Shown here piece by piece: positions 3,330 through 56,105 of a stretch of 64,000 nucleotides of DNA. The notes under the pieces are model-generated. The model did no database searches, had not been told where the DNA came from, and saw nothing but the letters and a program-made list of their open reading frames with translations. How positions within the stretch are numbered: the first letter of the stretch is position 1; every line of letters begins with the position of its first letter. Source of the DNA: Nereocystis luetkeana (taxonomy: Eukaryota > Sar > Phaeophyceae > Laminariales > Laminariaceae); contig JARUPZ010000005.1 of the NCBI GenBank assembly GCA_031213475.1, forward strand, positions 9,177,848-9,241,847, written 5' to 3'. Made by a program: the position numbers and the translations under genes.

Positions 3330-3690
3330 TACACAGGCCGGCGTCCCCGGTGGCTTGGTAGGTGGTCCGCGTGCCTACTATAAGATCAGTTCCGTAGGTT
3401 CGAGTCTCACCGAGTGCATACTCGTCGGGACTTTTTCTTGCAAAACAAAAAGACTAGCGGAAAGCGCGAGAGCGTGAGCTAGCAACATTCGATAAAAACC
3501 GACGAGCAGTGGGAATGCTGAACCCTATACGCGATAAAAATGAAGCCACGTGCCGGGGGATGGGGAAGGGAAGGGACGACACCTGTGACCACACGGCTTT
3601 TGTCCGAAAGATGGCCGAGGGTAAACCATTCTCCTACGAGTTAAGCTGGAAAGTAAAAGTGATGATCGAAAATATATAAATATATACCTG
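3330..3690 (+). mobile_element. SINE-A, tRNA-derived head plus shared core
   Basis: The head has a pol III A-box-like TGGCTTGGTAGGTGG (about 3349) and a B-box-like GGTTCGAGTCTC (about 3398). The body runs GCGCGAGAGCGTGAGCTAG ... GACGAGCAGTGGGAATGCTG ... CGCGATAAAAATGAAG ... GACACCTGTGACCACACGGC and ends AT-rich. Body copies lie at 19095-19350 (+) and 16830-17043 (-). No open frame is expected. tRNA-like SINE is favoured over a tRNA gene because no clean acceptor stem is visible. Confidence 0.7.
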
Positions 3691-4084
3691 GTACGTATAT
3701 ATACAAATCAGGAACGTATCTGCAGCCGGTAACCCCCCCTGGGAGATGTAAATCATGAAGCGTGCACCGATAACCCGTCACAAGTATCAAGCGTATGAAC
3801 ACCGAGTGACGAGAGAACAGGTTGCGATATACCTGGTACTCAACTACTACACCGTAGAACGGCTGGCCACACGAAAGTGGCAGGGGCAGCAGCAGCAGCA
3901 GCAGCTCGGTAGGACGGAGATGTATCGACAAAAAGCAGGGGAGAGGCGTATGCACCCGATCTACGACGCGTTTCACCGTCAGTCTTGAGTCGGAAGTCCC
4001 ACGTACTTTAGGGCTTTCGTGCCTACCTATGTATTGTGGCAATCGAAGTGTACCCTAGATTTTCGATCAGACTGGTATCTTATC
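3691..4084. other. no gene seen
   Basis: Holds two TACCTGGTA motifs (about 3687 and 3829) and a short CAG run (about 3889-3904). The short frames are not persuasive as genes. Confidence 0.45.
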
Positions 4085-6362: not shown

Positions 6363-7654
6363 AGGAATAAAAAAAAGTTATAACAACAACTACGGCGGCC
6401 ACGGAATAAAAAAGTGAAAACGTTGTGGTTCTTTTCTTTTTCGCGGAAGATTTTTTCTCCTCGTTTTTTTTTTTCTCTCCTCGTTTTTTCTCTTGCGCTC
6501 GTTTTATTTTAGTTTTTACTGGCGACGTGGACTGCAAGGAGAGGAGATACGAGTATACCATCAATAGTAATAATAGATCAAACCACAGCCGATCGATGTT
6601 CTAACTAACCGACCGGTAAACGCTCACTACTGTCGCGCTGCTGAGGCTGCCGCGCGTATCAGATTTTGTAGTTGCGCTTCAATCAATTATTGCGCTCATA
6701 TGCCTCATCAGCATCATCATCAAGCGGCAGGTAGGTGGGTGGGATGAATGAAAAGTTGGTTTTGAAATACTCAAAACTTTTCGAACACGTTTTCTTGTTT
6801 TTTTGTTTTTTTTGTCATTTTTTTATATCGAGTGAATCTCTTTCTTTCCCCAATCCCCTCGCCGCGTCCTTCCGCACACAAGCAAGCGCGTCTCCTTTTT
6901 TTTTTCGCCGTGCCTGTATTATACTGCTTGTACAGACGAGACTGTTATTTTGCGTCCGTCGCCGTTCGCTAGTAATAGGAACATATATTATTACCAGGTA
7001 CCTGGTATATATGATCATATTATACATGTGCTTGCGGCAGTATACATACCATGGTATAGTTCAGAAGTACCCACCAAGTTGTTTTTTTTACCTACAGGGC
7101 TAACAGCACAGACAGAGCCGTTGCTGTCGCAGTGTGTGCACATTATACGGTGTGTGATCGGCGTTGAAATTCGCAACATCTTCTAAAATATTGTGCCGTG
7201 CGGCCCGTTTGTCGTAGAGGGCAATGCACCCAACAACATTTTCGGTGTACTCGTATCTCTCTGTTGTATACGAAATTCTGGTTGTACGCACGAAATATTA
7301 ATTTGTCACGAAAAAAAAGGTCTCCCGTCTGTGTTTGAGTGTGTGTTCCTTCACGTTGAAAAAAAGCGTTCCTTATTCTGCCCGTCGACACCAAGCACAA
7401 CCAGTGTCCGTGCCGATTCTTCCATCCCAGAGAGAGGTAAGCTCCGTGCTCACAATACTACGACACGGAGGTACTACCAATTAATACCAGTACATTTTGT
7501 TAGGCCGTAAGCAGCGTAGACAGAAGAAGTACAATTATTGCTGCGTCGTTGTACTATGAATAGATTCGACAGGCACGATATACACATTCTATCAAAAGAG
7601 GGGAAAATCGAAAGAAGCAAAGGAAGACTAATAAAATCAGAAAACAACACTACT
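6363..7654. other. no gene seen
   Basis: Unique AT-rich sequence with T runs. A double motif TACCAGGTACCTGGTA lies at about 6992-7008. No coherent protein or repeat family. Confidence 0.45.
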
Positions 7655-8512: not shown

Positions 8513-8587
8513 TTAATATTAATATTAATAGTAAAAATAGGGAAGAAGTAAAAAAATGTATACCTGGTAGGTTTTTTGTGAGTACCG

Positions 8588-8640: not shown

Positions 8641-9024
8641 TAGGCGGGGGGGGGGAACAATGTTGTACTGCTGCTGCTGCTGCTGCTGCTTGCTGCTGTA
8701 TTTTCTGCCGCGCGGTAAAAATGGAGTCACTCACCATCACGTGATTCCTACGGTATACGTTGCCGCTGGGAGAGGGGCCGGGGGCGGAGTGGCCCCTCTA
8801 CTACTACTACAGACTAATAAAAAAAATGTGTGACTCTCCCCTCGGATCTGAGGCGCCGAAAGGGAGACCAGGGCAACGACAATGGATGGATGGATGGATG
8901 GGGCTCGTAGAAAGAGAACAAAAATGACTCCCCTACGAACTCGTGCGGCGTGTGTGTCCTGCACGTAATCACCCCTTTTAGTAGCACAGCAGTAACTAGT
9001 TACCAGGTAGTTAGTTACTATCAC

Positions 9025-12147: not shown

Positions 12148-12175
12148 AGTGTATATATATATATAACATACCAGG

Positions 12176-12210
<35 letters not shown>

Positions 12211-12652: not shown

Positions 12653-12810
12653 ACCTGTTGTTGTTACCAGGTATGTGATACTGCTTTGTCCGCTCTCCGT
12701 CATCTCAACATTGTACCGCATACCGCGCTACCAGTAATGACAGGGTCGTGCCGCGCGCGTGTCCTGCAGCTCCTCGCATTCGCCAGTGCTATCGATGTCT
12801 GCGGTGGTAC

Positions 12811-12921
12811 CACGGAGGACAATACCTGGTAGTAAACAGGACCAAATGTTCTTGGTAACAATAGGGAAATGTGCGCTTTTCAGCGTGTAACGTAGGTTCT
12901 ATTTACTACGGTCCCCCCGTA
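12811..12921. mobile_element. MITE-A copy carrying a TACCTGGTA insertion
   Basis: Left arm CACGGAGGACAATA is followed by CCTGGTA and then GTAAACAGGACC. The copy at 15438 reads GGACAATAGTAAACAGG across the same point, so this one has an exact 7-bp gain at a TA. Right arm GGTTCTATTTACTACGG followed by CCCCCGTAA. Confidence 0.75.
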
Positions 12922-12961
12922 AATAGTACCAGGTATTTAATAGTGACAACAGTCAGTTTCA

Positions 12962-13073
12962 TATTACGGGGGACCATAGTTAATAGGACCAAATATCGAT
13001 CGCAAAATTAGCGAAATATATACCAGGTTTTTGTGTGTAACGTAGGTCCTATTAACTATGGTCCCCCGTAATA
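12962..13073. mobile_element. MITE-A copy
   Basis: TATTACGGGGGACCATAG to GGTCCCCCGTAATA. The interior reads TATATACCAGGTTTTT where other copies have TATATAGGTTTTT. Confidence 0.85.
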
Positions 13074-15237: not shown

Positions 15238-15437
15238 ACGGGGGTCTTGGGGCCCTGTCCCCCTCTGCGCCTAGACCCCATTCCACCCCAAGACCCGGGG
15301 GCGATGCCCGCCATCGCTTCCTGTGACACCCCCCATGTATCCCTCATCTCCCGCAATCTGTCCCCTAGCTGAGAGACAATGCTCGATTCTGAGAGCCCCC
15401 TCTTGAAGTTATCGCCTAACGGGCCTGTGAGGTCCGC

Positions 15438-16392
15438 TATCACGGGAGGACAATAGTAAACAGGACCAAATATTGTTCGTAAAAATAGCGAAATACTAGG
15501 TACATACGTTTCTATGTAAAACCACAGGAAAGACTTATGCCAATGGAAACGCGAAGTTGAAAAGTTTTTTTTCAAATATATGGCTTTAAAAAAACAGCCG
15601 AAAATTTTCTCGTACCGCCGCTGTGGGGAAAAAAGAGAAAAATGTTTGATTTTTTCTTTTTTTTTCCCCAACGGCTGCAGGCGGCGCAATTTGTGTTTTT
15701 CTGGTCGCAACTTGTCAACACGGTGATCGAAACCAGCTCGTGCGACAATCGACCCTCGATCTCGACATAGACTCAGCCCACGGCCAACCCACTCGGTATC
15801 TGGCAAGCCCAACGAGTATAGATGATGGCCTCGAAGATATCAGGCGGATCCATGGTCTAGGGGGCGAGAGCTTGCCGGCGGCGTCGTACGGTATCCTCCC
15901 AAACCTGAAAAAAAGACTATTTTTTGCCATTCGAGACGGATGGAGCAGTTTTGTCTTCTGTTTTGTGCAAACCAGCGGCCAAATGTTTTTTATCACACGC
16001 CTGGTCAGCTCCCGCCACATGACACCGGCCATAGTGTGAAGACGGTGACCCTAGGGTGGGTCGGAGCCCCTAACGAGCGCACTCCGTTCAGAATTCGTGA
16101 CGCAATCGTTGGTTTTGTTGATCGATGTCTGTCGAGGACTCGGAATCTCGCCGCTTCGAACCAAAGATCGGCCTGAGTTTTTCTCAAGCCGATGTTGGCC
16201 CAACATCGGCCCAAGATTTGCTTTTTTCGGGCTTTTCCAAAGGTTAGGAACTTTTTTGTTTTTAGGTGGCCCATAGGAAGCGTGTTCTGAATTGTTTTGG
16301 CGGGTATCTTTGAAATTCAAACTTTTTATTGCAACTTCGCTGTACCATTGGCAAAGGTCTTAGGTCCTATTTAATATGGTCCCCCGCAATAA
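15438..16392. mobile_element. MITE-A copy split by a transposon
   Basis: Left half 15438-15528 (TATCACGGGAGGACAATAG ...), right half 16362-16392 (AGGTCCTATTTAATATGG ... CCCCCGCAATA). The host LINE-1 reads GTCTGCCTAAACCTCC at the empty site at 43022, and here TA precedes and follows the MITE, supporting a TA target. Confidence 0.8.
15529..16361. mobile_element. non-autonomous TIR transposon nested in the MITE
   Basis: Left end AAAGACTTATGCCAATGG ... GCGAAGTTG ... TTTTTTTTCAAAT, right end ATTTGAAATTCAAAC ... CAACTTCGC ... CCATTGGCAAAGGTCTT. Reverse-complementing the right end gives AAGACCTTTGCCAATGG ... GCGAAGTTG, so the inverted repeats extend about 45 bp. AGG flanks both ends (15526-15528, 16362-16364), a likely 3-bp target duplication. 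Internal frames (15740-16039 +, 15715-16032 -) are not recognised as a transposase. Superfamily undetermined. Confidence 0.75.
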
Positions 16393-16815: not shown

Positions 16816-17056
16816 CATTGCTCGCCATTTTTTTTATTTGTTTTTTATCATCACTTCCACTTTCTATCCTGGTATTAATAGGAGGTTTTTACCCTCAACG
16901 AGCTTCTGGACAAGCCGTGGTCACAGGTGTCTACCCTTTCTCCCCCCCGGTACGTGCCTTTATTTTTTGTCGCGCGTAGGGTTCATTCAGCATTCCCACT
17001 GCTCGTCGATTTTCATCGAATGTAGCTAACTCACGCTCTCGCGCATTGCTCGCCAT
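16816..17056 (-). mobile_element. SINE-A body with 13-bp target duplication
   Basis: The reverse strand matches SINE-A body words (GTGAGTTAGCTACATTCGAT, GACGAGCAGTGGGAATGCTG, GACACCTGTGACCACGGC). CATTGCTCGCCAT is repeated exactly at 16816-16828 and 17044-17056. On the minus strand the A-rich tail (ATAAAAAACAAATAAAAAAAA) abuts the low-coordinate repeat, as expected for LINE-driven insertion. The tRNA head is missing. Confidence 0.8.
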
Positions 17057-17132
17057 AATACGTACCAGGTAGCTGATGTTGTTTTTATTTTGTTGGTGAC
17101 TACCTGGTATGCTATTTCGAGTCACAGTATAG

Positions 17133-18168: not shown

Positions 18169-18239
18169 AAAAAAAAAAACAAGAACGGAAATAAACCGCT
18201 GAGTGCGCCTGTATTAGTAGCTACTACCAGGTATTAATT

Positions 18240-19094: not shown

Positions 19095-19350
19095 ACTATT
19101 TTCTATATTTCTTTGCTTAAAACAAAAAATGATTGGCGGAAAGCGCGAGAGCGCGAGTTAGCTACCTGGTACATTCGATGAAAATCGACGAGCAGTGGGG
19201 ATGCTGAACCCTATGCGCGACAAAAAATAAAGGCACGTACTGGGGGGGAGAAGGGTGGACACCCGTGACCACGGCTTGTCCAGAAGATCGCTGAGCGTAA
19301 AACCTCCCACGAGCTAGTTAGGCCGGAAAGTAAAGTGATTACTATTAATA
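19095..19350 (+). mobile_element. SINE-A body carrying a TACCTGGTA insertion
   Basis: Matches 3430-3680. It reads GAGTTAGCTA-CCTGGTA-CATTCGATG, whereas the copy at 16.8-17.1 kb reads GAGTTAGCTACATTCGATG: an exact 7-bp gain at a TA (19163-19171). The tRNA head is absent. Confidence 0.75.
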
Positions 19351-19852
19351 AATATATATCCCTATCATCTATGTACCAGGTATAAATATGTACCAAGGTA
19401 GAATAGCGAATGGAAGACGGACAAGTATAAGGTAGTCACAAAAACGTTAAGAGGGAGTACGAGTATGTATTGTATGTATAAATAATGCATACAGGTATGC
19501 ACAACTATAAAGACCGATGCCCCCCCCCCCCCCCCCCCCGCGTGCTCCGTCTCGAAAGGGATGCGTGGTCAATGGTCAAATGACTAAGGCAAGCAACAAA
19601 TGAGTACACCCCCCCCCCCCCCCACCCCCCCCCTTCCCCCCCCGCGCCTACACGCTACAGCATATGTGAGTACTACGTGACGGAATGTACGTGCGTACAG
19701 TCGTACGTATTATGTATTTGTAATTAGTGTGACTATGAATAGAGTCAGTGCCACCCCGTCCTTTTTTTGTCACGTAGAAGAGGACAAATGAGCCCGATCA
19801 CACGCACCCGTGTGTGTGTAGTAATACAGTAGTGGTGTGCCACACCACAGCT
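19351..19852. other. no gene; poly-C tracts
   Basis: Long C runs at about 19519-19539 and 19608-19640. No gene seen. Confidence 0.5.
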
Positions 19853-19972: not shown

Positions 19973-20940
19973 CAGCTGTGCTACTGTTCGTTCTCGTCGG
20001 TCGCATGGAAGCGAGAGGCAGACAGTAGTCCTATCTCACGGCGGGCATGACACAAACCGATTGAAGCACCGCGGGATGTGCTGGATGACCCACGGGAAGA
20101 AAGAACGGTTTTAATGTGAAGCACACACATTAGAACGGTAAAAATACAAAAGGTGAAACCAGCACAACAAAAACATGCCGGCAGATTATCGGGGTGCGTG
20201 CGTACCACACTGTTCTTTATCCACACGAGCGGCATAATGAGAGGGTGGGGATGCAGGGTGGATGTATGTATGTAATGTGTGGGGCCATCCCATCCCACGT
20301 CCCCTATTATCCCCATCCCATCACATGCGACGCTTGCTCAATAATACTGGTGGGACTCATCGCCGTGTTCATACACAAGAAACGAGAGAAGGGAGAGAGG
20401 AAGCGGAAAAAAAAAAAACACGACAAATCGAAGACGAACAACAGCACCTGATACTGCTGTCGGTAATATCGATCACGGGTAGCATACGCAGCAAACACCC
20501 CCCCCCCCCCCCCCCCCCCCGCCTCTGGGCGGTTAGTTGCCGCGTCCGTGGGCTGCCTGTAGTGTGGTGCAGAAATACGCGGAGAGCGCAGAGACACTGC
20601 ATGTAATGTACACGGTGACGTGGAGACTTGTACGCACGAATAGGCAGCGCCACAGCCAGCAGTGCTGCCGGGCGCCCTGCTGTTACTACTTATTACTGGC
20701 GCGCCAAAATCCGCATACCAGGTATATATATATTATATATATACCAGGTACCAGGTATGTATACAAGGTTTTTCTGTATTATTGTGCCGCGATTACTATT
20801 TACTATACAAGCAAACGTATTCTATATGTTATATATACAGCACACATTATGAAACAAAACCAAACAAAAGACGGGAATCGAAGACATTATTTGTTTTTCT
20901 CTCGCGTTAGCCGCGTGGCGGCGGTGTTGAGAGATGTGTG
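19973..20940. other. no gene seen
   Basis: Includes a poly-C tract (20497-20520) and a cluster of TACCAGGTA motifs in AT repeats (20716-20760). Confidence 0.45.
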
Positions 20941-25510: not shown

Positions 25511-28500
25511 ACAACGATCGACCACCTCCTTTCTCCCATGGCGACACAGGTATTGCACCCATCTACAACCCACCCGCCGTTTTTTTCTCCCGTTTTTCCG
25601 GTAGGAGAGGTGGTGGGGGGGGGGGGGGGCGGGCGGGCGGGCGGCTGCTAGCCTCGTCCGAGCTATACAGAGGCCTCGCGAGCTCAACGGCGCGCGCTCC
25701 GTTTGGCACGCGGCCAGCATATGCCAGCGCAAGCATGCCAGCGCATGCAGCATGTATGGTATATATTCGGCATGCAGCACATACATATATTTATATAATA
25801 TACTGTATACCTGGTATATAAATATATATATATATGTTATTATATTATATAAATACTTTGTACCACCTGCACAAACCACAAACCAGCATACATACACGAC
25901 ATACAATGCATAAAGCGGCACATAATGCCAGCACCTTGCATGCATGCATGCATGCGTGATTGTGCGCGAATCTCGACCCGGCTGTCGAATTTCGGACCGG
26001 AGTAATATATAAACACGATAATAATCTCCGCGTGGTGCGTGACGTACTCCACATTCCCGTGTATGTATAATATACATATTATATCGCCGATGGTGGCACA
26101 GCGACTTCAACTTTCTACCAATCACGACCTCTTCAGGGGGGCTTGCTTGAGAGGGGTGAAAACGAAGTGGAAAACGAAAAAAAACGAAGCTTTTCTTGTG
26201 CACGCTCGTGTAGGACAAAAATTCACACTCACGAAGCAGGCACAGCTTTCGGGCATTGCATGCTGGGATACCATCGTATGGAGAGATGGTGTGTCTGGCG
26301 TGCAACGGATACTATGGCGGGGTGGGTGGAGGCGGGGGGAAAGCGGTGGGGGGGGGGGGGGGGGGGGAGTGGTGTACTCGATAAGGGGAGATAGGTACAT
26401 GAAGACACCGCGCTGCTGGTGCTGGCGGGTGGTACTGCTTCTTGTACTGACTGCTTCACGCGCTTCGCTTCCCAGGGAGCTGGCAAAGGCCGCGGCATTT
26501 ACTCACCGCGTACGATGCTTGTTTCTACCTTCCCGCCAAAATTTTGAGGCCGCGATGAAGAAAAGCAAAAAAGCTGGCTCCTCCTGCGTATATACTACAC
26601 CCAAATGGGGGGATAGTTCAACACACACACACACCTGTTCACACCGAAATATGTACTGTTTGTTGTGACACTTGGAACACCACCGCTGTTGTTTTCGACG
26701 TACGGATGTACCGCATTCCGTGTTGTTTTACTGCGTAAAAAGAAAAGAGTTTTTTTAGAAAACAAAACCAAAGAGAGCGACTGTCTCCTATACCGACCGG
26801 CCCCACTTTCTCGTACCAGTAGACGCGGCACCAAAAAGGCGCTATTCACGCGGTGCTACTGCCCCGTGTCCGAGGCGTCTCACGCGTCGATATGTTCTCG
26901 TCCAAAAACTCGAACCACTGGAGGGACGCTGTTAGATAATATTGCACGCCAGCTCCGCGGTTCTCAGCCACCCCCTTCCGCCCCGAAATACATAGAAGGC
27001 GTGCGGAGGTCGCTGGCCAAGGCACGCACGGTGAACCGACAAGAACCCGAGGCTACGCGCGCTGCCTCATGGACCGTACAGGATCCTCGCGAAAGACCAA
27101 GACACCGCAACTATTGTCGCGCGCGAAAGCAAACCCATCATGATACTGTACAATAATACAGCCTCCCCCCTGGCGATCGATAAACAACTCGGATCGGTCA
27201 GACCGAGACCAACTTTATTTGTTTTCAGTTTCGTTTTCTTGTTTTCTTTTCGTTCATCGTTCGTTGTTTCGGACAGTAGTGACACGTATAATAGAAGACA
27301 TGGTTCACCCATCGTAATTGTACCGACAAGACATCATAATTAAACCCCCCCCCCCCCTCCCGAAAGCTCCACCTTCCATCAACCCAACCCACCGATCTCT
27401 CCACCAACACAAGTGACTCACATCGTCTATAATATTGTTGTAAAGCACGCCAAGCCCACCACCAGGCAAAGACCCGAGAGAAAATTTCTCGGCCGAGACC
27501 CAACGGACATGTTATCGAGCTCTCTCTCCATCCTCCCCACCGATCCTTCACCCATCCAGTGATATTGGGGATGATGGCAGGTGATGGCTCCGAACGTACT
27601 CAATGAAAAACTTTTTAGATCTACAAGAGCGATCTCCCCCTTTCTCATGGCCGCACAGCCCCCCTCCTTCCCCAACCAACTTCGTTGTTGAGCGGAAAAC
27701 ACGCGCGGCGAGACCCCCCCTCTTCTGCCTGCTTGAACACGCGCGTTGGATGCGCGTGTTTTCGGCAGTGACCAGGAGGGAAGGAGGGGCGGGGGGGGAA
27801 GGGGCGTTTCCGTACTCCCAGGCAGCGTCCCATTCAAAAATACATTTCCACCCTGCAAGCAAAAACAGCTAGGTACGAACACCCTCCCTTCCTCTCTCCT
27901 TCGGTCCCTTGCAAGCAAAGCCATTCAGCTCGGTTTCAATTCAAACCTCCCAGAGCTCCCTCCCCCCCCCCCCCCCCCCCCCGTATCACCCACCAAAGAA
28001 AGAGAGCATTCAAGAGCCACCAGCAAACGAAGGTTTAGATTATTTGCTACTTCATCTCGCCGCGAGAGCTATACTGTTTTTGCTTCTTCCTGCTCGTCTA
28101 TGCATGTACGATATGTACCTGGCATCATAGCGTAGTGTACAGAGTACAACACGGCTGCACCGGGGGGGGGGGGGGGGGGGGTTCTTTCGATCATATTTTT
28201 CCTTCTCTCGGGGATTTCTCTCGTCTACGTAAAAAAAAGACACAACAAAAAAGCAGAGAAAGCAGCAGAGGGCATTACATTTCACAGCGCGGTTTGGAGA
28301 ACGTCTCATTACACGTTAGCCACCCGATATTACACCCGCAGAGAAAAGGCCAAGAGTAGAAAAGCAAGTCAGGCGGGCAAGCCAGCCAGCCCCGCTGAAG
28401 CAGCAACAAACACCCGACGGCATCGTCGGCGGTCTCAAGTTTCACACCCACAAGACGACAAAAAAAAAAACGGAGAAGAAGAAGAAAAAAAAAAAAAAAA

Positions 28501-30330: not shown

Positions 30331-33300
30331 CTGGGTGTACCTGAGCGACAAATTTAGAAGCAACATTTTCGGAGGGAGAGGAGTTGACAAATTTAGAAGC
30401 GACATTTTCGGAGGGAGAGGAGTTGGGAGGAGGAGAGAGGAGGGGGCGTACTCATTTGTTAGTCATTTGACCATTGGCCACGCATCCCTTTCGAGACGGA
30501 GCACCGTTCCTACTCCTAGTAAAGACACCAACATTGGGGGCGCTCATTACGTTGTTCCATATACTATTTTTCGAATACATAGAAACGTTTTGCTACTCGT
30601 AACCTTATCCTCTTCCTGTTTGGCCGCCTGTGGCCACCACCTATCTCCTAGGGTAGCGATCGTTTTCTTGCCATCTACTTCTGTAGAGTATCAAACTCCT
30701 CCATGTCACATTCGTCTACTCCCCTCATCGCCTCTTCCAACACATCCCGTTCCTCCTTAAAACGTTTCACATTCTCCTACTGTGTGACTTCTACGCTCTA
30801 TTGCTTTGCCACACGGGCACATGAAGGGAGCGGGGGGGGCGGAGGCATAACTCAGACCCAGGGACAGACCAGGTAGTCTTAGGGTTTTGGCCACGCATCC
30901 CTTTCGAGACGGAGCACCGTTCCTACTCCTAGTAAAGACACCAACATTGGGGGCGCTCATTACGTTGTTCCATATACTATTTTTTGAATACATAGAAACG
31001 TTTTGCTACTCGTAACCTTATCCTCTTCCTGTTTGGCCGCCTGTGGCCACCACCTATCTCCTAGGGTAGCGATCGTTTTCTTGCCATCTACTTCTGTAGA
31101 GTATCAAACTCCTCCATGTCACATTCGTCTACTCCCCTCATCGCCTCTTCCAACACATCCCGTTCCTCCTTAAAACGTTTCACATTCTCCTACTGTGTGA
31201 CTTCTACGCTCTATTGCTTTGCCACACGGGCACATGAAGGGAGCGGGGGGGGCGGAGGCATAACTCAGACCCAGGGACAGACCAGGTAGTCTTGCCCAAC
31301 AAATTAGTTGTGGTTGCAGAGATCATAAAACGCCCGTCTGTTTTACGATCGTAAATACTACACCACGAGGTGGATGACGGAGGGAGGGGTCGTGTAGTGG
31401 CAAAGTGTCCGTCTGGAAAAGAATCTCGCGCACGGAAGCCGAAAAACAAAGAACAACCCCCATCAACACAACAAAAGCTGTGCAGTTTCCAAACAAAGAG
31501 TTGGTTTGTTTTGCCAATGCTTCGTACATGCTGATCGTACGAGTATCTAAAAACATGCACGCCGCGGTAAGCAGCGCATGAAGCGACTGCAACCCCCCCC
31601 CTCCCCTCCTTCCCGCTGTCCCCGTGCTGGCGCCTCGCTTGAAACACCGCAACAGTATCATGCATACATACGTACTTCGACAATTCACAAAATACAACTT
31701 TTGACACGTTTGTACCTCCCCCCCATAGTGGTCGCAAGCAGCCCAGATATTGACACCCGTGTCGGGCTGCCTACGCAGATGAAGCTTCCGGCTGTTATGT
31801 ACGCACGGCGTCATGAAACACCGCGCACGTGAAGTGAGCTTCAGAGTACACACGTACGTACGTACGTGCTTCTTCTATGTTGTTCGGTTTTCAAAAAGCG
31901 GCCATCAGGGGGGGAAGGGAAGCAAGCGTCTGAAAAGACTCGACAAAATGAAAAAAAAAAAAAAAAAAAGAGAGAAAAAAAAAAAAAACTCACCAGTGGT
32001 TCTTCACTGCGTTCTCCGATCTTCCCGGAAGCAGCCCCGATATGTAGCTCCAGGCGTTTCCGTACTCCTTTTGGGCTCGCCACAATACCTCCTCCTCGTC
32101 GTGTGACCACACCTCCCTGCTCGCCTATATCGAGAGAGGACGGAACCGCAGCGATGTGGTGGTTGATTGGGACGAAACAACGGGGGGGGGGGGCGGAAGG
32201 AGAAGAGGAGAGGCAAGATAAGCAAGCGGCCGGACAGGGCAAAGAACCCTTTGGGACGTTCCAAAAAGTAAAAAGAGGGGGTGGGGAAAAGTTTCCAGAA
32301 ACGAAAGGACGAATTTTACAGCGTGGAAAAAACACGACATACCTGGTATATAGCAAGCACCACGTACGTTTTTTTTTTTTTTTTCCCCTGGAGCTGCTGG
32401 AGTAGGTACGAAAGGGATGGATAGCGAAAAAAAAAGCACAACCCCTTTCTAGTAAGCTGCGCAAGCCACGTCACGACTTTTACGGACACCCCCTGCTGCC
32501 GCGCGTTTCTTTTTGCCTGCGCCAGACGGTTTGACAAAATACGAGCCTCTCTAGAATACTCTACGCGTTTTCGATGCGTCCAAGAAGGCTTTTTGCATTA
32601 ATAACCTCTTCTCGACTCGAGAAATATACTCGTAGGCTCGGGGGGGGGGGGGGGGGGGGGGTGGTGAGGGGGAGAAACGAACTTCGAGAATATAAAACGA
32701 TTACAGGACCGGCCACGCGGAGCACAGCCCGCTTTGGTGGGGACGGCGACGTGTGTCCGAGGTGGGACTGGGTGCGATATTATTAGCAATTGCAGTCCTA
32801 CTTTGGGGACGAACTACTAGCAATAAGAGTTTGAGCGTTAATCGCCGCAAACGCTGCAAGCGACGCGCGGCAGCACAGCATGGCGACGGTCGGTCGTGTG
32901 CTGCCGCCTGCTTTTTCCTGGACGCTCCGTAGGCGCTTGACAAACATTGCTCTGGTGTCGCTCTTTTTTTTTTGGTCGGTATATTATCATACATGGGTGA
33001 TGATGGAAGGGGGGGGAAATATGTGTACCCATGGCATTTTGGTAAAAGACCACTCAAAAAGGCCACTCGTACCAAACAATATGTGACCATGTTGTTTGTA
33101 CCCCACGTGATGACAATGCCGAGCGCGTGTTTTCGGCCAAGTATGCGTGCGTGCGTGTATGCGTGCGTGGGTGTGCGCAGCAGTGGCAAGCCCAGCCCGT
33201 CCAAGGATCTCAGGGTGGCAGGCACCCCCTCCCCCCCCACTTCCCTCGCTTGCTTGGTTTTACTACATTCCTTCATCAAGACGAAAATAACAAATCAACA

Positions 33301-33728: not shown

Positions 33729-36700
33729 GCTGTTGCTGCTGCTGCTGCTGCTGCTGCTCGGAGGAAGAACCCATCGTCCACTCGCCCCGCCCCCCCCCAC
33801 CACCGCCACCCCCGTCCGCCGCCCCCATACCCAAAGAATGGCGCCCGCCGCCGCCGCCGCCGCTACCGTCGCCAGTAGCGATGGCCGCCGCGGCCGCCCA
33901 AGCCTCGTGGCCCCTTCTGCCCGACATGATCGCCGACGTAGACGTAGGTGAGGCCGGGCGGTTCTGACGAGATGACGACAACGGCGAACTAGAATCAGCC
34001 CTGCAGGAACCCGACTCAGGGTAGTGGCGAAGGACCTGATCCCATGCGGCAAAACACAACAAAGCAAAACAAAGCGAAACAAAACAGCGACGACGGCGGC
34101 CACGTTTTCGAATAGGAAAAAAAAAAAAAAAGCACACACACACACGAAACACAAAGAAGACACGAATATACGGCGCGACCAGAAGGAGGAGGAGGAGAGT
34201 GCGAAGCAAAAAACGGGGGGGGGGGGGGGGGGGGGGGGGGGGGTACAACAGCTCATTCGGTATGGTACGGCTTTTGGTTGCAGAGGATACGGCATCGGCA
34301 TGACGTGGGATACGGTGGGAAGGCGCGGATGTCACAACGAAAATTGGGCAAGATAGAGCCACATGGGCAAGTTGTAAGATCCGGATCGAAGGCTAGGAGC
34401 GGGCGGGGGGGGGGGGGGGGGGGGGGGGCGCTGTACCCGTGTACACATACATACTCGTTCCACAGTACATGGAATTTTCTCCCCGTGTTGGGTCAGTACG
34501 ATGATGAGGAGCAGCCATATTATCTTTTTTTTCTTTCCGCCTTGTATCACACATAATATGATTATGATCGAATAAACAACTCACTGGTTCGTACTGGTAT
34601 GGCAGGCGCTTTTGGATCTGCGAAGACAGCAGCGATGATGATGACGATGATGTGATGTGAGAGTTGAATAGCCAGAGATGAGACCGCCCCTAGCCGCGAT
34701 CCGGATCGGGAGGAAGGTTTGTGGGAATCAACGCTTTGTATCGTCTACCAGGTACGTACTACCAACTGTAGTATTTATTGATTTAGTGTAATAATTAGTG
34801 GGTAAAACAGATGGCCATGCCGAAACAAAAACTGCACAACCGGCAATTAACCGATAGGAAGTAAAAAAAAAAGTTGTGGCCAGCATGAGCGAGAAGTGGC
34901 GACATAACGCCAAGACACCTTATAATAACGAGTACCTGGTAGGAGAGGACGAAGTCAGTATAATACAGACTCAACCGTTTATTACTTGTTGATGATCTAT
35001 CTTATTATTTGTCAAAACAACCAGGTAAAAAGCAACATATATTTTATAAGAAAATTTGAAAAGTTTCTTGTGTACGTCGTGGTATGTACATATCGTGCGA
35101 CATTTCTTTCGACGAAAAAAAAAGAAAGTACCTTTCGACGTACCTTCGTGAAACGGTGAACCTTCGTTCACCCGGGCCCCCCTTCTCTCTGCCCGGACAC
35201 GAATCTCGCTACGTCGATGTTCATGTCTCGTCTACCGTATCTCTCCCTTCTCCTCCCGTCCCCAACCCCTCCTCTCTGGGCAACCTCCTAACTAAGCGAT
35301 AGCCGGGCAATAACTATAAATACAAACACATCCTGAATTAATCGATCTGATCTGCCTACGGCAGGAACTACTGACTGGTACCAGGTATTAACCAAATGCA
35401 ATTCAACATCACTCACAGCCCGTGGGTAAAACAAAAGGTTGGTTGACCTTTTTGGGCCTACATTTTCAGAAACTTGGAAGAAAGCTTTGTACCGCAGTCC
35501 CGATTTGGGGACAAACCGGTCTAATTCCAAGTGATTTGTTCCCCACGTGATGCTGCGGATCTCACAGGGTTTCAAGTTCGTTTTTCGTGGAAAAGTACGG
35601 TACGTTTCAGCAACGCTTTTTGAAGCGTGTTCATAAGCGGCGTACGTATGCCGCAGCAGCAGCAGCAGCAGCATTGATATTAATAGCACTGCTGTAGTTG
35701 CAAGACCTAACGTACTACAGCAGCAGCCGCAGCAGTAATTTATCTAGGATTTACAGTCACGTATCGTATTACCCCTCGTATCGTGCCTATTACCGCTGGC
35801 TGTTGCATTTCAATATCCTTTCTTTGTTCCGCTGTTGATGTGCATGTCACCCAGCAAGTGCACGGAGAGCTCAACACCCCAAGGACTCACCCTACTGCTG
35901 GGCTGCTGTGCTGCCATGTCTTCCCTCTGGTGCTGCTGCTGCTGCTGCTGAAACCCCCCTCTCCGCCCCTGGCTCGCCATCCACTCCTCCTGCTCCCTGC
36001 TCGCCCAGCCACGCTCGTGGCGTCCCCCTGCGTCATGCCGAGCACACTCTACCTCCTCCTCCGGCCGGGAGTCGCAGCAGGATCCGCCGGAAAAAGACGA
36101 TGTTGGGTCAAACCCCCTGCTTGAAGAACCCAGTGCTGGTTTGGACCACGGGACAGCAGCATCCCACTGTTGTCTGGGGGGGCGGACCGCAGCGAGTGAT
36201 GCCGACGACTCTGGCTGAACCGCTTCCGTGCTGCTCAAGGCCTCGATCCTCGGTACCTGGCACCGCTCTCCGCTTGGGGACCAGCTCTGATGGTGGTGGT
36301 TGGAGTGGTGATTGTGGTGCTGGTGGTGGTGCTGGTGGTGGCGGTCGGACGCTGCTCCTACTCCTGCGCCTCCTGATCTGTTTTCGGCCATCCCAGCGGT
36401 ATGCATACCCGCCGGTACTGGTAACTGGTAGCGGGATGAGCCCGCTGTTGTCGTTTCTAGAAGACCGTGAGAGGTGTGTGGTACTGGTGCTGCTGGTGGT
36501 GATGGCGACGAGACACGTCGCTGGTGGTGCTCGTGCTGGAGGTAGTGCTGCTGCTGCTGCTGCTGCTGCTGCCGTGCTGACGCAATGCTAGCAGACTGGT
36601 GCTGGTGCTGCTGGCGCACGGTTGGCCGTGGCGGCGAGCTGGAGGAAGACCGCAAACCAGCAGGGGAAGCAGCAGCAGCAGCAGCAGAAGGAGAAGAAAC

Positions 36701-38681
36701 GGAATCAGAACCAGAAGAAACCGCAGAAAACGCAGCAGCGGCAGCAGGAGATGACGTCGTATTTCTATTTTTCGCCAAAGCCCGAGCCTCAGAAAGAGTC
36801 GACAGTTGCATCGGTGCAGCCATCACCATAATCCGCGATGTGGGAGCCGCTGCCTCTGCTGCTACCACGTGCGACCCAACCTCGGGTCGACGGTGGTTAT
36901 GCTGCTGCTGCTGCTGCTGGTGCCGGTGCCGCTCCGGGTCGCGATTGTGGTGGTGGAGCTCATGGCGAACTCTTTGCTGCTCCTCCTCCTGGCGCGGAGG
37001 CTGCTGCTGCTGCGTGGGCTGGAGCTCCTCGAGCGCGGCCAGCCGCGGAAGCTGGCGCAACCCTCCGGTGGCCCCGGGGCCAGCGGGGGCGGCGCCTGAC
37101 TCGAACGGCGCGGAATCTACCTGCAACCATGATCCGGCCGGAGCCGAGTCAGACTTTTGCGATTGGATTCGGGATCGCTGCGACGAGGGAGGGAGCGTGA
37201 AACCCGTCGAGGGCTCTGCTCGCTTGTTGATGTTAGCGGGGCGAAACGGCGAGGAGGAGGCGGCGGATTTGACCTCGTTTGGTAGCGGGGGGGAAGGGTA
37301 GCCGGCGCTGAGAGCAGAGTCTTCGGAGGCCGAGGACGTCTCTCCGTCGTCATCATTAGAGTCGTGGCCCCCAGCAGTCCTGCTGTGGTACGAAAACGAC
37401 AAAACGAATGTACGGTACGTACGACGAGCAGCAGCAGCAGCAGGGAGGCATACAATACTCGTTACAGTAAAGCAAATGGGAGCAAGAGAAAAAGAAACAT
37501 ATTATTTTTTTCGTGCCTATTCTATTTTTGTATGACTAAAAACAAAACGCAACAACCTACGTGTGTGTATGGTACTGCTGTTAATAAAAAGACGACACGA
37601 CATATACGACTCTAGATTGTTTTTTTTTTTTTTTTTTTTTTTTGCTCATCCCATTTATTATCTTCGCCCATCTTCTTCTCTCTCTCCTTCCAACTCGTAA
37701 CTCAGATCCGGGGTCACATAGCAGGCTCTTCTCCCCCCTTCCCGCTACGGTACGTGCCTTCATTTTTTATCGCGAGAAGATTTCAGCCTTATCTTCCCTC
37801 GTCGACTCGCATCGAATTGTGCCTACCCACGCTGCAAGGCGCTCTCAACAATTGAATCCCTTTTTTATTTTTATTTTTGCAAATAAAGTCAAAGTCCGAC
37901 CCTCCTGGGGCTCGAACCCAGGACTCAAACAAGTAGAATTCGAGGTTAACCACTTGAACCACCGGGGCGACCGTGGGATGATGTGATACGAAAAAATAAT
38001 ACCAGATACTACGTACATGGAAAAAAAAAAATCCAGTTCCGTCCAGTGAGACAGATGACTCTACATTATTTTATACCAGGTACCAGGTAGAAGACTCTAC
38101 ATGCAAGATAGATAGATTCTTCGTCTGATATTTTTTGGCGCCCCAAAGAAGATGTTTTATCTTTTTTTTTCCCCATGTCTTTTCGCACGTGTTTTATTAT
38201 TGTTGTGGCTCCCGACACGTTTTTTTTTTCTCGTTTTACCCGAGAGCGAGCGGCCCGGGCGCATGTCAAAGCAAGCGGAAAACGTCGCTGCGCCCATGGG
38301 AATCGGTGGGTTGCCGTGCGGCGCGGCGAGGCGCGATGCGGCGCGGAGTGTGCACGGGCCGGCGCAGCAGCACGCGCAGGTCGAGGTAGCGCAACAACAA
38401 CGAAGGTATAAGCAACGAGGTTGTATACATCTTTTATCTGTCGTTTGTTTTTTCGTTTTTTCTTGACTACTGTGAACGGGGAGAGCTGCTCTGCTGCTGC
38501 TACATATCATCCAGAAGAATACGATACTCGTATATATACCAGGTAAGATAAAAAAATGAAGATATTTTCCATCAACGCACCGGTGAGGTCTGGAGAAATC
38601 ACCCCGTTCTTTCCTGCTGGGCTGCTCATCATTGCGAAGCTGCTGCTTATGGTGATGAGTCGATGGTTGCATGCGCCTCGT

Positions 38682-39287: not shown

Positions 39288-41055
39288 GCTGTGCACCAGA
39301 TGTACTTTGGAAATCGCTTGCTTGCGCAGAAAATCCTTTGCTGCCGCGGTGGGTGTGCCCTAGCCCCACACACCGTGCGCGCGGGAGGGGCAGCGGTGGT
39401 GGTCGCGGGGCGTTCCTTCGGGAGCGCAGAGGAGAGGTGCTCGGTTCGGCGCGGCGCAGGTTGGGTTCAGGCCACGGCCGGAGAGAAAGAGAGGCAAGAG
39501 GCAGGTGATGGCGGCAGGTAGGTGTATAATAGTAGAGAGGTGGCGATGTTGTGTGATGATATGATGAAGCAAGATGACGATGGAACAGGGGAAGAGAAAG
39601 AGCGTGTGTTGTTGTTGTTGTTGTTGTTGTGTCGTTGTCTCTTGTGTGTGGCGGCCTGTACCGAAAAACTCGAGAATTTCGACCCAAAAACAAAAAAACA
39701 AAACAAAACAAAGAGGCAAAGAGTTTTTTGGTCGCTTCCCTTTTTTTTTGGTCGCCCGTCCGTGTGGGTGTGCGTGTGACTTGTTTGATGTGATGATGAG
39801 ATCGACGCTTTGCTGTGTTTGACAATGATGGTATGTGTGCGATGAAATCAGATCGGATTTTCTGTTCGGCCGTGTCATGACGAAAGGAAGCAACCGGACA
39901 ACCATTGGTCTTTTCTTTGGGGGCAAACTATTTCAGGAAAATCCGTGACGTTTGATGTGGAAGCATCGGATGATCTTTTTTTTTTTGTTTTGGGGGGTTT
40001 GGATTTTGGCGGATGATGATGATGATATTGATGATGATGATGATGATGTCCTATCGTGCGTATGTACCGTATGTATACCGTATGTACCGTATGCACAACC
40101 GTATGCACGTGGTGTGATGTTTCATACCCTGGTACGTTTTTTTTTCTTTTTTTCTTTTTTTTTTTCTCCTTTTTTTTTCTTTTTCTGAATTTTTGATGTT
40201 GCTGCAAGAAAGAAAGTGCAAGCGACGCAGGACGTTTTGTCGCAGCGTCCTCCGTCAATCGTTCGTTCGTTCGTTCGTTCGTTCGTTCGTTCGTTCGTTT
40301 GTTCGTTCGTTCGCCGGCATTTATATGTTTATTGTTTCTTTTGGGAGGTAGATATATGTATCTTTAACTTTAACTTCCCAAAAAGTCTTCGTATCATACG
40401 GCTGCTCCTGGTGGTGTGTACCAGGCATGTCGTATGTGCATGTATGATACGTTGTGTGGTGCAGCGAGCAGTGTACCAGGTATATTGATTGTTACCGCAC
40501 TTCATATTTATTTGGGAAATGTAGGGACCATCTACGAAGCACTTTGATATGGACATAGTGCTTACATTCTCGGACAAATTGGTGTATCTTTTGACATTCC
40601 ACGATTGCCCGGAAATAATAAATAATGGAGGACCGTTTGGATACACATTTCATATTCAAAATAATAACCAATCGTGGTATACCTTCTTCTGTACGACGAT
40701 ATACACAGGTACCAGGTACTATATACCACAGGTATTTAATACTGTTGTACCTACTATTTCATAGCCTACCACCTGGTGCACAAAAAAAACGGTCCACGCC
40801 CTGTGTTTCTTCGTATTTCTGACGATTTCACATGCATTGCATATATATATGCATTTTTTTGTGTTGTTGTGTCACCACATGATTTGCTAGCAGACTACTA
40901 AATTGTACACGCTGCAGACTCACCAGTCATCACTTTTTCGTCATCACATAAAATATACCTGGTACAAGATACAATACACATATACGAGTATACATACATC
41001 ATCGAATAAATTCAACATCCATCGATGATAAATAATAATAATATGATGAATCTAG
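39288..41055. other. upstream of the minus-strand gene; no other gene
   Basis: Would hold the promoter and 5' UTR of the 990-residue gene. I see no clear TATA box or initiator to commit to. Contains GTT repeats (39609-39633), GAT repeats (40015-40050), T-rich runs and (TTCG)n at 40258-40312. Several TACCWGGTA motifs at 40471, 40708 and 40955. Confidence 0.45.
40258..40312. repeat. TTCG tetranucleotide microsatellite
   Basis: About 13 units of GTTC with one variant. A shorter copy of the same motif is at 59039-59066. Confidence 0.95.
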
Positions 41056-41115: not shown

Positions 41116-41601
41116 ATGATCTTCAGCACGCTAGATGGTTTATTACCAGCTTTATTAAGTACGGTGTCAGATATACATATAAATAAATAAATGTGATATT
41201 GTTATTTATCGCAAATAAATGTATATGTGTGATGCTGCTTTGGTGGGTTTTCGTTTTTGGGCTGTTTGTTGTTGTTGTGGTGTTCTTGTTGGTGTTCTTA
41301 CGTTTTTACCAATCAACAATTTTGTAGTTATAGTTGCTCTTCTTGTGGCGTTTGTTGTGGCTGGATGTGTCTTTTTTTTGTGTGTCAGAAATATGTACAC
41401 ATACATCTAACTATCTGTTTAAAATCTGATCTTAATAAGCTTCACATTCATTCCGGTTACATTTGCACACCTGGTACCATCACACACAGTGAATTAATAA
41501 CTGTGTGGTCCTCTCTCGCCTATAATATATACCTGGTACCTGGTATATATATATATATATATACTTCGCGCTCGTCCGCCCTCGTCAAATCAATGGTGGA
41601 T

Positions 41602-44040: not shown

Positions 44041-45353
44041 ATGTTGATGTTGTTTGACTTTGAGAGATTACTATTATACCTACTTGATATATATATATAT
44101 ATATATACATACAAGGTTGGCCTCCGGGAGGTGCCTGGGGGAGTGGCGCAAAAACGAAATAATACTCGTCGTATGAAATACCTGCACACACACCTGTTTA
44201 GAACTATTAATAACAACTGCATCCACCCATCATTAGTAATAGTGCGAAGAAAAAATACATGTTTTTTAGGACAGACTTCTGTACACTATGCTGTTGTTTG
44301 TGGAAATAGTGTGCGATCATTTCAACAGTATAAAAGAGGGGGTATATACGACCGGTACTCGTAAGTGGATATTGATCCTGAACAGATGACTCGCGGTGAT
44401 CAATTCAATGCTTGCGGCGTGAACGTAAGTATATCCTATTAATATGTACCAGGTATATATGTATGTATGTGTACGCATACCTAGTATGTATAATATGTAT
44501 GTATGTATGTATGTCATGTATGATGCATGCATGCATGCATGCATGCATGTATGTATGTATGTACGTATATGTTTTAACTATATATGTATGGTACGTATAT
44601 TATGCATATACGTACAAGTATGTACATATACTGTAGTATGCATGTATACAAATTTACGTATGATAGATATTAGGCGAAGCTGATTCGCGGATAACTCCCG
44701 CCGCCGGACGCCTGTCTCTGTGAGGTTTCTTCGCCGCGGGGCGAGCCCCAGCCTCGTGTACACCCGTCGGCGCCACCGATCCGCCCACGCAGCCCCGCGA
44801 GAGTCCCGTGTACCCACAACAGGTCGGAATATTGACGAAGTACTGCTCTTTCAGCGACCTGGGGGTGTTACCCTCTCGCGCGCCACAGAAGAGATGTGTT
44901 TTCAAGTGTTGGTGTTGTCGGGTAAGCTCTCTCCGGCCGCGAACCCACCCAGAGGCTTCGCCAGCCTGAAGGGGCTGACCTCGAGGGGGGGCTGGGAGCT
45001 CGAGGTCTATGATAAGAATTGCACCCCGAGCCGAACAAAATGCCATCCAGGTCTCGTATGGCGATAACGTCGAAATAGTTTCTACCATCATCATGTTATC
45101 GTGCAGTACGAGGAGGTGTCAGTAGACGAGTACGGCAAACATCGAACTCTCACGGACAGAAACCATCGCGTCGGTTATTGATATTGAGGCAGCTTACATG
45201 GCACTCAGCATCTGGCTCTCGGTAGATTCTTGGATACCCTGCGCGTTGCAAGGTCAACTCACCATTTCTCTGTCGCTCGAGAGGATCGATCAATCCACCC
45301 AGAATCGAGAGCTAAAGGGAACAGTAGACTGCAAAACGTTACGTATCTAATGC
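44041..45353. other. TATG/CATG microsatellites and an unassigned GC-rich block
   Basis: ATGT/ATGC repeats at 44455-44572. From 44660 to about 45200 GC rises, with a minus-strand frame of 146 codons (45094-44654) and an overlapping plus-strand frame of 115 codons (44720-45067). Neither is recognised. The minus frame could be a mobile-element remnant, since decayed pol sequence lies just upstream on that strand. Confidence 0.35.
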
Positions 45354-47010: not shown

Positions 47011-47454
47011 GAAGATACATACCAGGTACGTATCAGGACACACAACAGAATAGTACCAATCATGTCACCAGCCGTAGGCAATCATACATTAGGCGGCTTG
47101 GGTATGTGATCTCACAGTCTACATACCATGACTTTAAAGTGCCCAAGATACGCACAGCAGCGGTTGTTCGTCTGTCTCGGACGTGTGAGCGAGGCGCGGT
47201 TGAACCTCTGGCGCGGAGTAGGCAGAGATGTTCTACAACAGCCACAGCTGTGTTGAGCTCATCATGCAATGCATGTGTCAGGTTTGTGGCCAAGATACGT
47301 GCGAGTGCACTCGTTGCCGTATGTGCCCGCAGTAGTGATCGCATTTACGATGAAAATCACCTGTTATTCTCCGCGGAAAGTGCGCGAAGCGCTCTAGACT
47401 CTTGGCTTTGCGCCTGATCTACGTCCTTCACGGCAATGCTGCCACTCGTAAAAG
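47011..47454. other. no gene seen
   Basis: Two opposing unrecognised frames (47060-47344 -, 46947-47417 +). A TACCAGGTA lies at about 47018. Confidence 0.4.
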
Positions 47455-47993: not shown

Positions 47994-48880
47994 ACATACA
48001 TAGAATAGAACTACATACTTAGATCGCAACCCCTGAGCGTGCTCGGTTGGTGCATCCCTGGCCTCTCAGAGCCCCCACTTCCGAACCGCCTCCTTTCATT
48101 ACTTGCCGGACCTTTCCAGCAGTTCTTTGTTTTCTCGGTCCTTTCTTCCTTTTTTCTTCTTTCGTTTTGTGTGCATGCGTGTTCTCCGAGCACGGCATCG
48201 CGGGAGGACCCGGCACCGTCGCGGGTGTCAGTGGGTGCTGGCGGGTAGAGGGGGGGTTGCAAGGAGCGCGGTCGCCGCTTTCGTGCCTAGGCGTCGCGTG
48301 TGCCTCGAGACACGAGGGATGCATGAACGGGCTTTGTCTGGCTTCGATTCATGATTGTTGATAGAGTATGTACGAGTTTATAAAATTCGTTCGGGAGGGC
48401 AAGATATTATACAAGCGGTGCTTATTTTTGCGATCACGCTGAAGTTGAAAGAGGGAGGTGTGCAGTTTGAACACCAACGTGATCGAGCTGGCGAACGACG
48501 GCCACGGTGAGCACCGGGCTTCACGCGGGGCGGGCGACGGGGCTGATTGTGGCAGAGAGTGATAAAAGCCTTACCCGGACCGAATCGGTAGCGAGGTGGT
48601 CGCGAGAGGTGCGGGCGGCGTACGAGGCTGAGAGAGAAGCTCTTCTGTGCGATTTTTTTTTTTTTTTTTCGACCGGGTGTAAGGTGTTCCAATCAGGCAG
48701 AAAAATATTACACGAGAGTGACGGTGATTTTTTTTCCTTTCCGAGTTTTCGGTTTCATTTTCATTGTTTTTGCTGCTGTGCCGTGCTGTGCTTTCGCTTT
48801 CTTCGTACATACAGTGCAGACATAACTGGTACCAGGTAGAGCATATCGAAAGAAGAAAATAAGTACAGACAGCAGTAGTA
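47994..48880. other. no gene seen
   Basis: Moderately GC-rich; frames of 80-110 codons on both strands overlap and are unrecognised. Confidence 0.4.
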
Positions 48881-55700: not shown

Positions 55701-55740
55701 TATAAAGAACCCGTTTTTATTGTGTCGTACCAGGTATTGT
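52701..55740. other. 3 kb without a supported gene
   Basis: AT-rich. Holds a repeat-X scrap at 53419-53470 (-), AT repeats and TACCWGGTA motifs (53122, 54122, 54487, 55480, 55494, 55728). Short frames are not persuasive. Confidence 0.45.
53419..53470 (-). repeat. repeat X scrap (copy 3)
   Basis: The reverse strand reads CCCAGGTAATTACCGGGCTTTCAA as in the other two copies. Confidence 0.6.
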
Positions 55741-56009: not shown

Positions 56010-56105
56010 TACGTACCAGGTACCAGGTATTGCGTTTTTGCCATTTGAAAACTTCCAGCTCAGTCTCGGTATACCAGGTATATATATCAAGTACCAGGTA
56101 CCATG
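56010..56105. repeat. cluster of TACCAGGTA motifs
   Basis: Four exact motifs in 96 bp, including the double TACCAGGTACCAGGTA. Confidence 0.85.

Follow-up and report, generated by a model that had tools for sequence, protein, structure and literature searches.

Of the systems described so far, the closest are the Tc1/mariner transposons, in which the short 3' tails left on the donor become the footprint; the scar of Sleeping Beauty, TACWGTA, is palindromic with a mismatched centre and presents a 3-nt analogue of the motif considered here. Two further systems are relevant: HIP1, a short cyanobacterial palindrome iterated genome-wide far above chance, and the internal eliminated sequences of ciliates, which have TA boundaries, Tc1-like end logic and very many sites, and the excision of which restores one TA.

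In the Tc1/mariner group, the 3' ends of the element are cut precisely, and the cut at the 5' ends falls 2-3 nt within it (PMC2170065). The footprints are 2-4 nt long for the group and 0-3 nt for ZB (PMC7913693). Those of the pogo-type Passer measure 0-4 nt (PMC9976928), and Stowaway leaves 2-4 nt of one side plus 1-2 of the other, so that totals of five or six are possible, varied and non-palindromic (PMC1925063). The target consensus is CAYATATRTG for Tc1 (PMC9635669) and the palindrome ATATATAT for Sleeping Beauty (PMC3271037).

The window, i.e., the whole 64-kb stretch analysed (a part of contig C5), contains 45 matches to TACCWGGTA, where 100 dinucleotide-preserving shuffles average 0.55 (largest 3), in agreement with the preliminary description, which had counted about 45 copies where fewer than one was expected. 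It had also proposed a genome-wide count against controls and regarded a result near expectation as an objection to an excision scar. The genome total (465,085,209 bases, 1,987 contigs) is 182,395, about one per 2.5 kb, compared to 1,744 for the reversed motif used as the control, an approximately 100-fold difference; the objection fails. Outside the window, the same coordinate on each of contigs C1-C20 was taken, a systematic rather than random choice of 20 stretches of 10 kb each; these 200 kb contain 60 copies, with at least one in 18 of the 20 stretches, so the density varies.

Our main comparison sample comprises 279,045 bases (279 kb), the window included. Here the centre of the motif is A or T in 112 of 114 cases (TACCAGGTA 70 and TACCTGGTA 42 vs TACCCGGTA 2 and TACCGGGTA 0), and CCAGG is observed 112 times among the TA-N5-TA words, with 2.4 expected. 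When odd 9-base palindromes with the weak or strong centre grouped are ranked in 264 kb, TACCWGGTA is first (105) and the runner-up has 23. Beside the 112 perfect copies in 279 kb there are 98 one-mismatch relatives against 63 expected; this corresponds to about 0.3 changes per 9 bases, a divergence of a few per cent, so the majority of the scars are probably not ancient and decay is low. Two unplaced small contigs, C854 and C1722, are 100% identical to C5:9231747-9234047 over 2.3 kb, and such assembly duplicates may raise the genome counts a little. No Rfam family exceeds the threshold within the 64-kb window, and none of the papers listed in a literature search describes the motif at the level of titles and abstract openings.

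We consider it close to proven that CCWGG with a second TA is inserted at a TA. The SINE-A copy at 19140-19307 aligns to 17047-16881 with 86.8% identity and a 7-bp gap equal to the motif; in MITE-A, the empty GGACAATAGTAAAC near 15.45 kb corresponds to the filled GGACAATACCTGGTAGTAAAC at 12823. Both paralogue pairs had been quoted in the preliminary description and are real, and the exact gain of CCTGG plus a duplicated TA that it noticed is found in each of them. An all-against-all comparison of the 279-kb sample yields 78 pairwise 7-bp gaps between paralogues, seven of which are CCWGGTA at TA (five distinct sites, the one at 19163 being counted three times); CCWGG also constitutes 8 of the 13 TA-duplicating 7-bp gap entries, where a single site is sometimes entered from both strands.

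The direction of the change can be seen in a 105-bp MITE, which is almost wholly palindromic (TTACGGGGGACCATAGTTAATAGGACC..., ends TTACGGGGGACC) and TA-flanked. It has 51 full rows in 279 kb, many copies being listed twice, once per orientation, owing to this near-palindromic structure, and its internal 20-mer has 16,304 exact copies genome-wide. Private CCWGGTA inserts occur in the single copies L021:5704-5820 and L017:6238-6353, and shortened forms in two copies (window 13021 and L028:4674). At the TA within GGACCA-TA-GTTAATAGGACC of this high-copy MITE, the empty form is found 16,304 times in the genome (8,241 + 8,063) vs 167 filled matches (69 + 98) with 1-31 extra nt followed by a second TA; the reversed control gives 0. 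Considering this ratio and the private inserts in single copies, the insert is derived and the empty state ancestral, which answers the reservation, made at the outset, that the motif could be the ancestral state.

Among the first 100 of the 167 filled matches listed, 77 are simple inserts and 23 are a second MITE end. A single CCWGG makes up 23 of the 77 (9 A, 14 T) and 23 of the 26 five-nt inserts; there are also two doubles, one triple with mixed centres (CCAGG-CCTGG-CCTGG) and three six-nt inserts (CCAGGG, CCCTGG and CCCAGG). The dominant simple insert is 5 nt long, outside the range of 2-4 nt, which does not decide on the type of footprint; since Stowaway scars may total five or six bases (PMC1925063), the length alone is less new. 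The scale of the phenomenon and the uniform 5-nt form are new to us. The remaining simple inserts are CG 6, CA 6, G 7, CWG 3, TTAA 2, CTCG 2 and others. The CA and G inserts could be slippage of CATA and GTA, while CG, CA, CWG, CTCG and TTAA are possibly scars of other TA transposons; CG would fit the ends of a 1,242-bp TA-flanked element at L025:1708-2949 (TIRs CGATAGAGGTAGC, no inner ORF longer than 121 aa). The word TATTAATA is also over-represented in the 279-kb sample (54 vs 1.6 expected).

Table 1. Motif sites, filled and empty paralogues and MITE copies in the window (positions are those of the window)
Feature	Position	Strand	Basis or remark
105-bp MITE copy	2005-2114		
TACCTGGTA	3685..3693	.	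motif match
TACCTGGTA	3830..3838	.	motif match
Tandem pair CCAGG then CCTGG	6992..7007	.	motif match
TACCTGGTA	8561..8569	.	motif match
TACCAGGTA	9001..9009	.	motif match
105-bp MITE copy	10232-10340		
TACCAGGTA	12169..12177	.	motif match
TACCAGGTA	12665..12673	.	motif match
TACCTGGTA, filled site in MITE-A-like copy	12823..12831	.	empty at ~15.45 kb
TACCAGGTA, few bases beyond MITE end (CCCCCCGTAAATAG)	12927..12935	.	motif match
105-bp MITE copy	12962-13076		
TACCAGG, truncated/decayed insertion in MITE copy 12962-13076	13021..13027	.	MITE copy comparison
MITE-A-like copy, empty site (GGACAATAGTAAAC)	15432..15501	+	sequence comparison
SINE-A copy with empty site (GTTAGCTACATTCG)	16881..17047	-	paralogue alignment
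TACCAGGTA	17063..17071	.	motif match
TACCTGGTA	17101..17109	.	motif match
105-bp MITE copy	17130-17238		
105-bp MITE copy	17850-17952		
TACCAGGTA	18225..18233	.	motif match
105-bp MITE copy	18410-18522		
TACCTGGTA, filled site in SINE-A copy	19163..19171	.	empty: window 16881-17047, window 3442-3663, L025:6181-6390
TACCAGGTA	19374..19382	.	motif match
TACCAGGTA	20716..20724	.	motif match
Tandem pair CCAGG CCAGG	20742..20757	.	motif match
105-bp MITE copy	25297-25418		
TACCTGGTA	25808..25816	.	motif match
TACCTGGTA	32340..32348	.	motif match
TACCAGGTA	34746..34754	.	motif match
TACCTGGTA	34933..34941	.	motif match
TACCAGGTA	35379..35387	.	motif match
Tandem pair CCAGG CCAGG	38074..38089	.	motif match
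TACCAGGTA	38537..38545	.	motif match
TACCAGGTA	40474..40482	.	motif match
TACCAGGTA	40710..40718	.	motif match
TACCTGGTA	40956..40964	.	motif match
Tandem pair CCTGG CCTGG	41530..41545	.	motif match
TACCAGGTA	44447..44455	.	motif match
105-bp MITE copy	45348-45462		
TACCAGGTA	47020..47028	.	motif match
TACCAGGTA	48830..48838	.	motif match
105-bp MITE copy	52303-52424		
TACCAGGTA	53123..53131	.	motif match
TACCAGGTA	54122..54130	.	motif match; identical in two duplicate contigs
TACCTGGTA	54488..54496	.	motif match; identical in two duplicate contigs
TACCAGGTA	55480..55488	.	motif match; identical in two duplicate contigs
TACCTGGTA	55496..55504	.	motif match; identical in two duplicate contigs
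TACCAGGTA	55728..55736	.	motif match; identical in two duplicate contigs
Tandem pair CCAGG CCAGG	56014..56029	.	motif match; identical in two duplicate contigs
TACCAGGTA	56072..56080	.	motif match; identical in two duplicate contigs
TACCAGGTA	56092..56100	.	motif match; identical in two duplicate contigs
TACCAGGTA	60078..60086	.	motif match
105-bp MITE copy	60128-60236		

We believe, with a probability of roughly 0.72, that TACCWGGTA is what remains after the excision of a transposon that targets TA and is cut 5 nt in from its ends; this reading as a scar is likely, not proven. A TA, preferably in a symmetric A/T-rich site with TAs 7 bp off, would receive a TA-duplicating cut-and-paste transposon, both ends of which would read TA-CCAGG... 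from outside inward. On excision the two strands would be cut by the transposase at different positions, one right at the end and the second 5 nt inside, leaving a 3' CCAGG tail on each flank. The tails would anneal as C:G, C:G, A:A, G:C, G:C with the central A:A mismatch, and ligation would produce TA-CCAGG-TA, which is TA-CCTGG-TA on the opposite strand. A shift of the pairing by one base, or a cut at 6 nt instead of 5, would account for the CCAGGG variant, and both new TAs would serve as targets, which would give rise to tandem units. The insertion with its duplicated TA, the derived state, the preferred target, the trace of CCAGG in the variants and the abundance throughout the genome are observed directly, and we infer all three of the following: the transposase as the agent, the 5-nt stagger, and a parent element that is low-copy or lost. 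By analogy, the scar would work like an excision footprint of the Tc1/mariner type, but we do not file it as one, since element tips equal to the footprint, a defining feature of that family, do not appear in the 279 kb. Of the Tc1/mariner-like scar proposed in the preliminary description, the derived gain at TA stands; the symmetric target and the orientation-specific variants are two further expectations of a transposon scar, which that description had not named and which are borne out here. We consider that the Tc1-like symmetric target and the orientation-specific length variants support the scar reading.

The 5-nt insert is its own reverse complement, so that it cannot show orientation and the A:T ratio among single scars is uninformative on mismatch repair; orientation can be seen in the 6-nt variant. 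In 326 kb, TACCAGGGTA is found on either strand 11 times against 0.7 expected, and TACCTGGGTA once against 0.5. Genome-wide, TACCWGGGTA has 13,000 matches (6,505 + 6,495) vs 771 for the control (5.9% of the matches). The centre in the first 100 matches listed, all on C1, is CCAGGG in 93 and CCTGGG in 7, with about three T-centred rows per hundred expected by chance. Eight of the 93 A-centred rows lie within C1:1304145-1308362, and the ratio becomes 86 vs 7 if this array is counted once; seven of the eight TACCAGGGTA there are 528 bp apart, which suggests tandemly arrayed units, each carrying one TACCAGGGTA. Two identical CCAGG tails give CCAGGG/CCCTGG and not CCTGGG, so the end of the element is read as TA-CCAGG; the end "starting CC" proposed earlier can thus be sharpened to "starting CCAGG" on the basis of these variants. 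The "wrong" form CCCAGG is found once at the MITE site (first 100 of 167 listed) and once in the 326-kb sample. The 4-nt variants lean weakly the same way (CCAG 26 vs 18.1 expected, CCTG 13 vs 10; 326 kb).

The ends would need only CC if 2-nt CC overhangs, as in Tc1, were joined via one added A (the A-rule filler) into CC-W-GG. Staggers of 2 nt are known (PMC2170065), and a young pogo-type element (L041, see below) has TA-CC ends; however, the centre is C or G in just 2 of 114 motifs and the 6-nt variant repeats G (CCAGGG 11), whereas other forms are rare in 326 kb (CCAGGC 1, CCAGGA 2, CCAGGT 0). We regard this course of events as unlikely.

The preferred insertion target is symmetric, AYA-TA-TRT with TAs 7 bp off. 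The symmetrised flanks of 76 isolated motifs contain A at -1 (0.47), A at -3 (0.49), T at -4 (0.48), A at -6 (0.48) and T (0.50) or A (0.38) at -7, where C is depleted by 1.6 bits and G by 2.3 bits relative to all TAs. A TA at offset 7 is present in 38% of 224 motif flanks (tandem pairs included) vs 7% for TAs overall, and in about 32% after subtraction of the 22 flanks of 11 tandem pairs. The symmetric A/T-rich target expected of a Tc1/mariner-type footprint is thus present here; integration by a TA-specific transposase predicts such flanks, whereas a regulatory palindrome would not.

Tandem units, written as TACCWGGTACCWGGTA, form 11 doublets among the 101 motif arrays of the 279-kb sample. 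The doublets and the triple are explained by the two TAs that a scar provides, each having another TA at a distance of 7 bp. The three doubled forms noticed in the preliminary description exist; their starts are 20742, 38074 and 56014 rather than 20745, 38069 and 56012, and two more are located at 6992 (A then T) and 41530 (T then T). Like pairs in the sample (AA 5 + TT 3 = 8) exceed the unlike ones (AT 3), and both doubles at the MITE site, among the first 100 of 167 matches listed, are CCTGG-CCTGG, so slippage may make part of the doubles.

Another mechanism would do without any transposon: at broken TAs, CCAGGTA units would be added from a template by a DNA repair enzyme or one resembling telomerase. 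In its favour, the unit length is 7, there are arrays of two and three, and no parent turned up in the sequence searched. We consider it quite unlikely, since a fixed template does not give arrays mixing A and T centres (CCAGG-CCTGG-CCTGG, or 6992 in the window), the target preference is two-fold symmetric, and the 6-nt variants CCAGGG/CCCTGG are as expected of two identical overhangs.

An excision scar implies a parent, and the preliminary description had suggested a TA-flanked element with matching tips. For spans to 1.5 kb, the 279-kb sample yields no TIR element that is flanked by TA and has CCWGG at its ends. A wider search of the same sample (spans to 10 kb, one mismatch in CCWGG) produced 20 pairs. 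The best one, window 50558-53444 with 15/16 inner matches, has CCGGG instead and forms the central part of a longer inverted repeat. Just four pairs of the 102 half-sites in 279 kb align mutually, and the outer flanks of the full motifs have nothing in common there beyond repeats. Judging by the size of the sample, a family with a few thousand copies would probably be represented in it. The two duplicate contigs, scars included, show no filled/empty difference over 2.3 kb at 100% identity. The last objection named in the preliminary description, no strain polymorphism and no TA-target element with matching tips, is thus borne out in part, for the sequence covered.

Several specific candidates were rejected. 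The mini-element TACCWGGTTTA...CCWGGTA has 74 genome matches without a common interior outside one 30-mer (8 of the 74, on C13 and seven small contigs). Paired 6-nt ends TACCAGGG...CCCTGGTA occur at 24 places with unlike interiors; the reversed control gives 211, read as MITE sequence. A 245-bp repeat near the motifs at 41.6 and 55.75 kb (window 41600-41842 and 55751-55996; mostly 92-94% identity among the genome copies listed) ends in ATTATTATT, and TIRs are absent in its alignment; it looks retroposon-like. The 105-bp MITE is ruled out by its TTACGG ends, and GGACC at TA-N5-TA (24 vs 0.9 expected) is MITE sequence. Apart from these, the window ORFs 43219-44067 and 49622-50212 are reverse transcriptase-like by eye; L020:2-9133 contains several long open frames on one strand, and homologues of L020:3173-4249 carry PF01833 (IPT/TIG) domains.

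At the protein level, PF13358 (DDE_3) and PF01359 (Transposase_1) have zero genome matches; in both cases intron-split exons may escape, and for the latter the control was silent too. The DDE_1 transposase has 28 genome matches, and five of the six ORFs scanned were confirmed to contain the Pfam domain; the remaining one is a companion ORF of L041. The surroundings were examined for nine of the 28: six are L033-L038, taken with 1.5-kb flanks (for two of these, L039 and L040 extend the flanks), L041 contains two and L042 one. CCAGG ends are absent around these nine. No TIR is present in L033-L037, L039, L040 and L042; weak TA-flanked pairs (11-13/16) in L034, L036 and L042 do not begin with CC, and L038 has one 12-nt arm pair. 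The only clear ends among the nine belong to the young DDE_1 pogo-type element L041:403-3905: they are TA-CCGK (CCGKAATCATGCGG), in full TA-CCGKAATCATGCGGAGG / TA-CCGKAATCATGCGGAGGTTCGCACCG, and the element has no CCWGG site. Its relatives are found on C18 (45%), C33 (62-66%) and C7 (44-57%, one 29%). A partial inverted copy, L041:3904-5791 (1,888 nt, 100% complementary), abuts it.

The absence of the parent in 279 kb, together with more than 180,000 scars and the TA boundaries, could point to elements that exist in a different nuclear or life-cycle state and are lost from this one through programmed excision, like the internal eliminated sequences of ciliates. We believe this to be very unlikely: programmed excision in Paramecium is not known to leave added bases, the scars decay (35 excess one-mismatch relatives per 112) and lie inside individual MITE copies like inherited mutations, and the contigs are chromosome-sized, up to 21.9 Mb. 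Selection for protein binding or methylation could also maintain a highly iterated palindrome made by point mutation, similarly to HIP1 in cyanobacteria. This would agree with the perfect palindrome, W centre and high density, but is most improbable, because the motif arises in repeats as exact insertions and not base changes, near-miss words are in small excess only, and neither tandem units nor 6-nt variants would be expected.

A stronger form of the excision-scar reading is tentative and, in our opinion, rather doubtful: one transposase with a 5-nt internal cut and the target TA-N5-TA-N5-TA would have carried out some 200,000 excisions in the ancestry of this genome, the parent being very low-copy throughout, or now hidden or lost. 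If so, +7 inserts of frameshift size would be among the commonest small insertions of the genome, and a cut-and-paste system would have been kept near zero copies for a long time, perhaps tamed by the host; the scars, too, would be of a new class. If the motifs are scars at all, they preserve well over 100,000 transposition events as a fossil record, far beyond a count from surviving elements; the excision rate, target choice and repair fidelity become measurable from the sequence alone; a transposon can reshape a genome and stay almost invisible to ordinary repeat annotation; and a transposase with a 5-nt stagger is predicted. If they are not, one has to assume a new mechanism that makes short templated insertions. 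In both cases, the fixed-sequence 7-bp insertion is a predictable class of mutation that should matter for gene models and strain comparison in this organism.

Compared to Tc1/mariner elements (Sleeping Beauty, ZB, Stowaway/Osmar), the TA target with its duplication and the terminal bases between two TAs are common, while the insert here is a uniform palindromic 5 nt vs the mostly shorter or varied ranges cited above for those elements, and there are more than 180,000 copies with the parent not found in the part searched. The inner AYA-TA-TRT of the targets agrees with CAYATATRTG of Tc1 (PMC9635669) and resembles ATATATAT of Sleeping Beauty (PMC3271037); the contacts at ±6/7 fall outside the ten-base Tc1 consensus. 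With the pogo/Tigger/JERKY elements (DDE_1), the TA target is shared, 28 transposase matches are present in this genome, and the young L041 has TA-CC ends; these read CCGKAATCATGCGG, and CCAGG ends are seen at 0 of the 9 matches examined (of 28). HIP1 is alike in abundance, but every copy tested here is an inserted 7-mer at TA, in a eukaryote. Finally, a single TA is restored at the internal eliminated sequences of ciliates, whereas here five extra bases stay.
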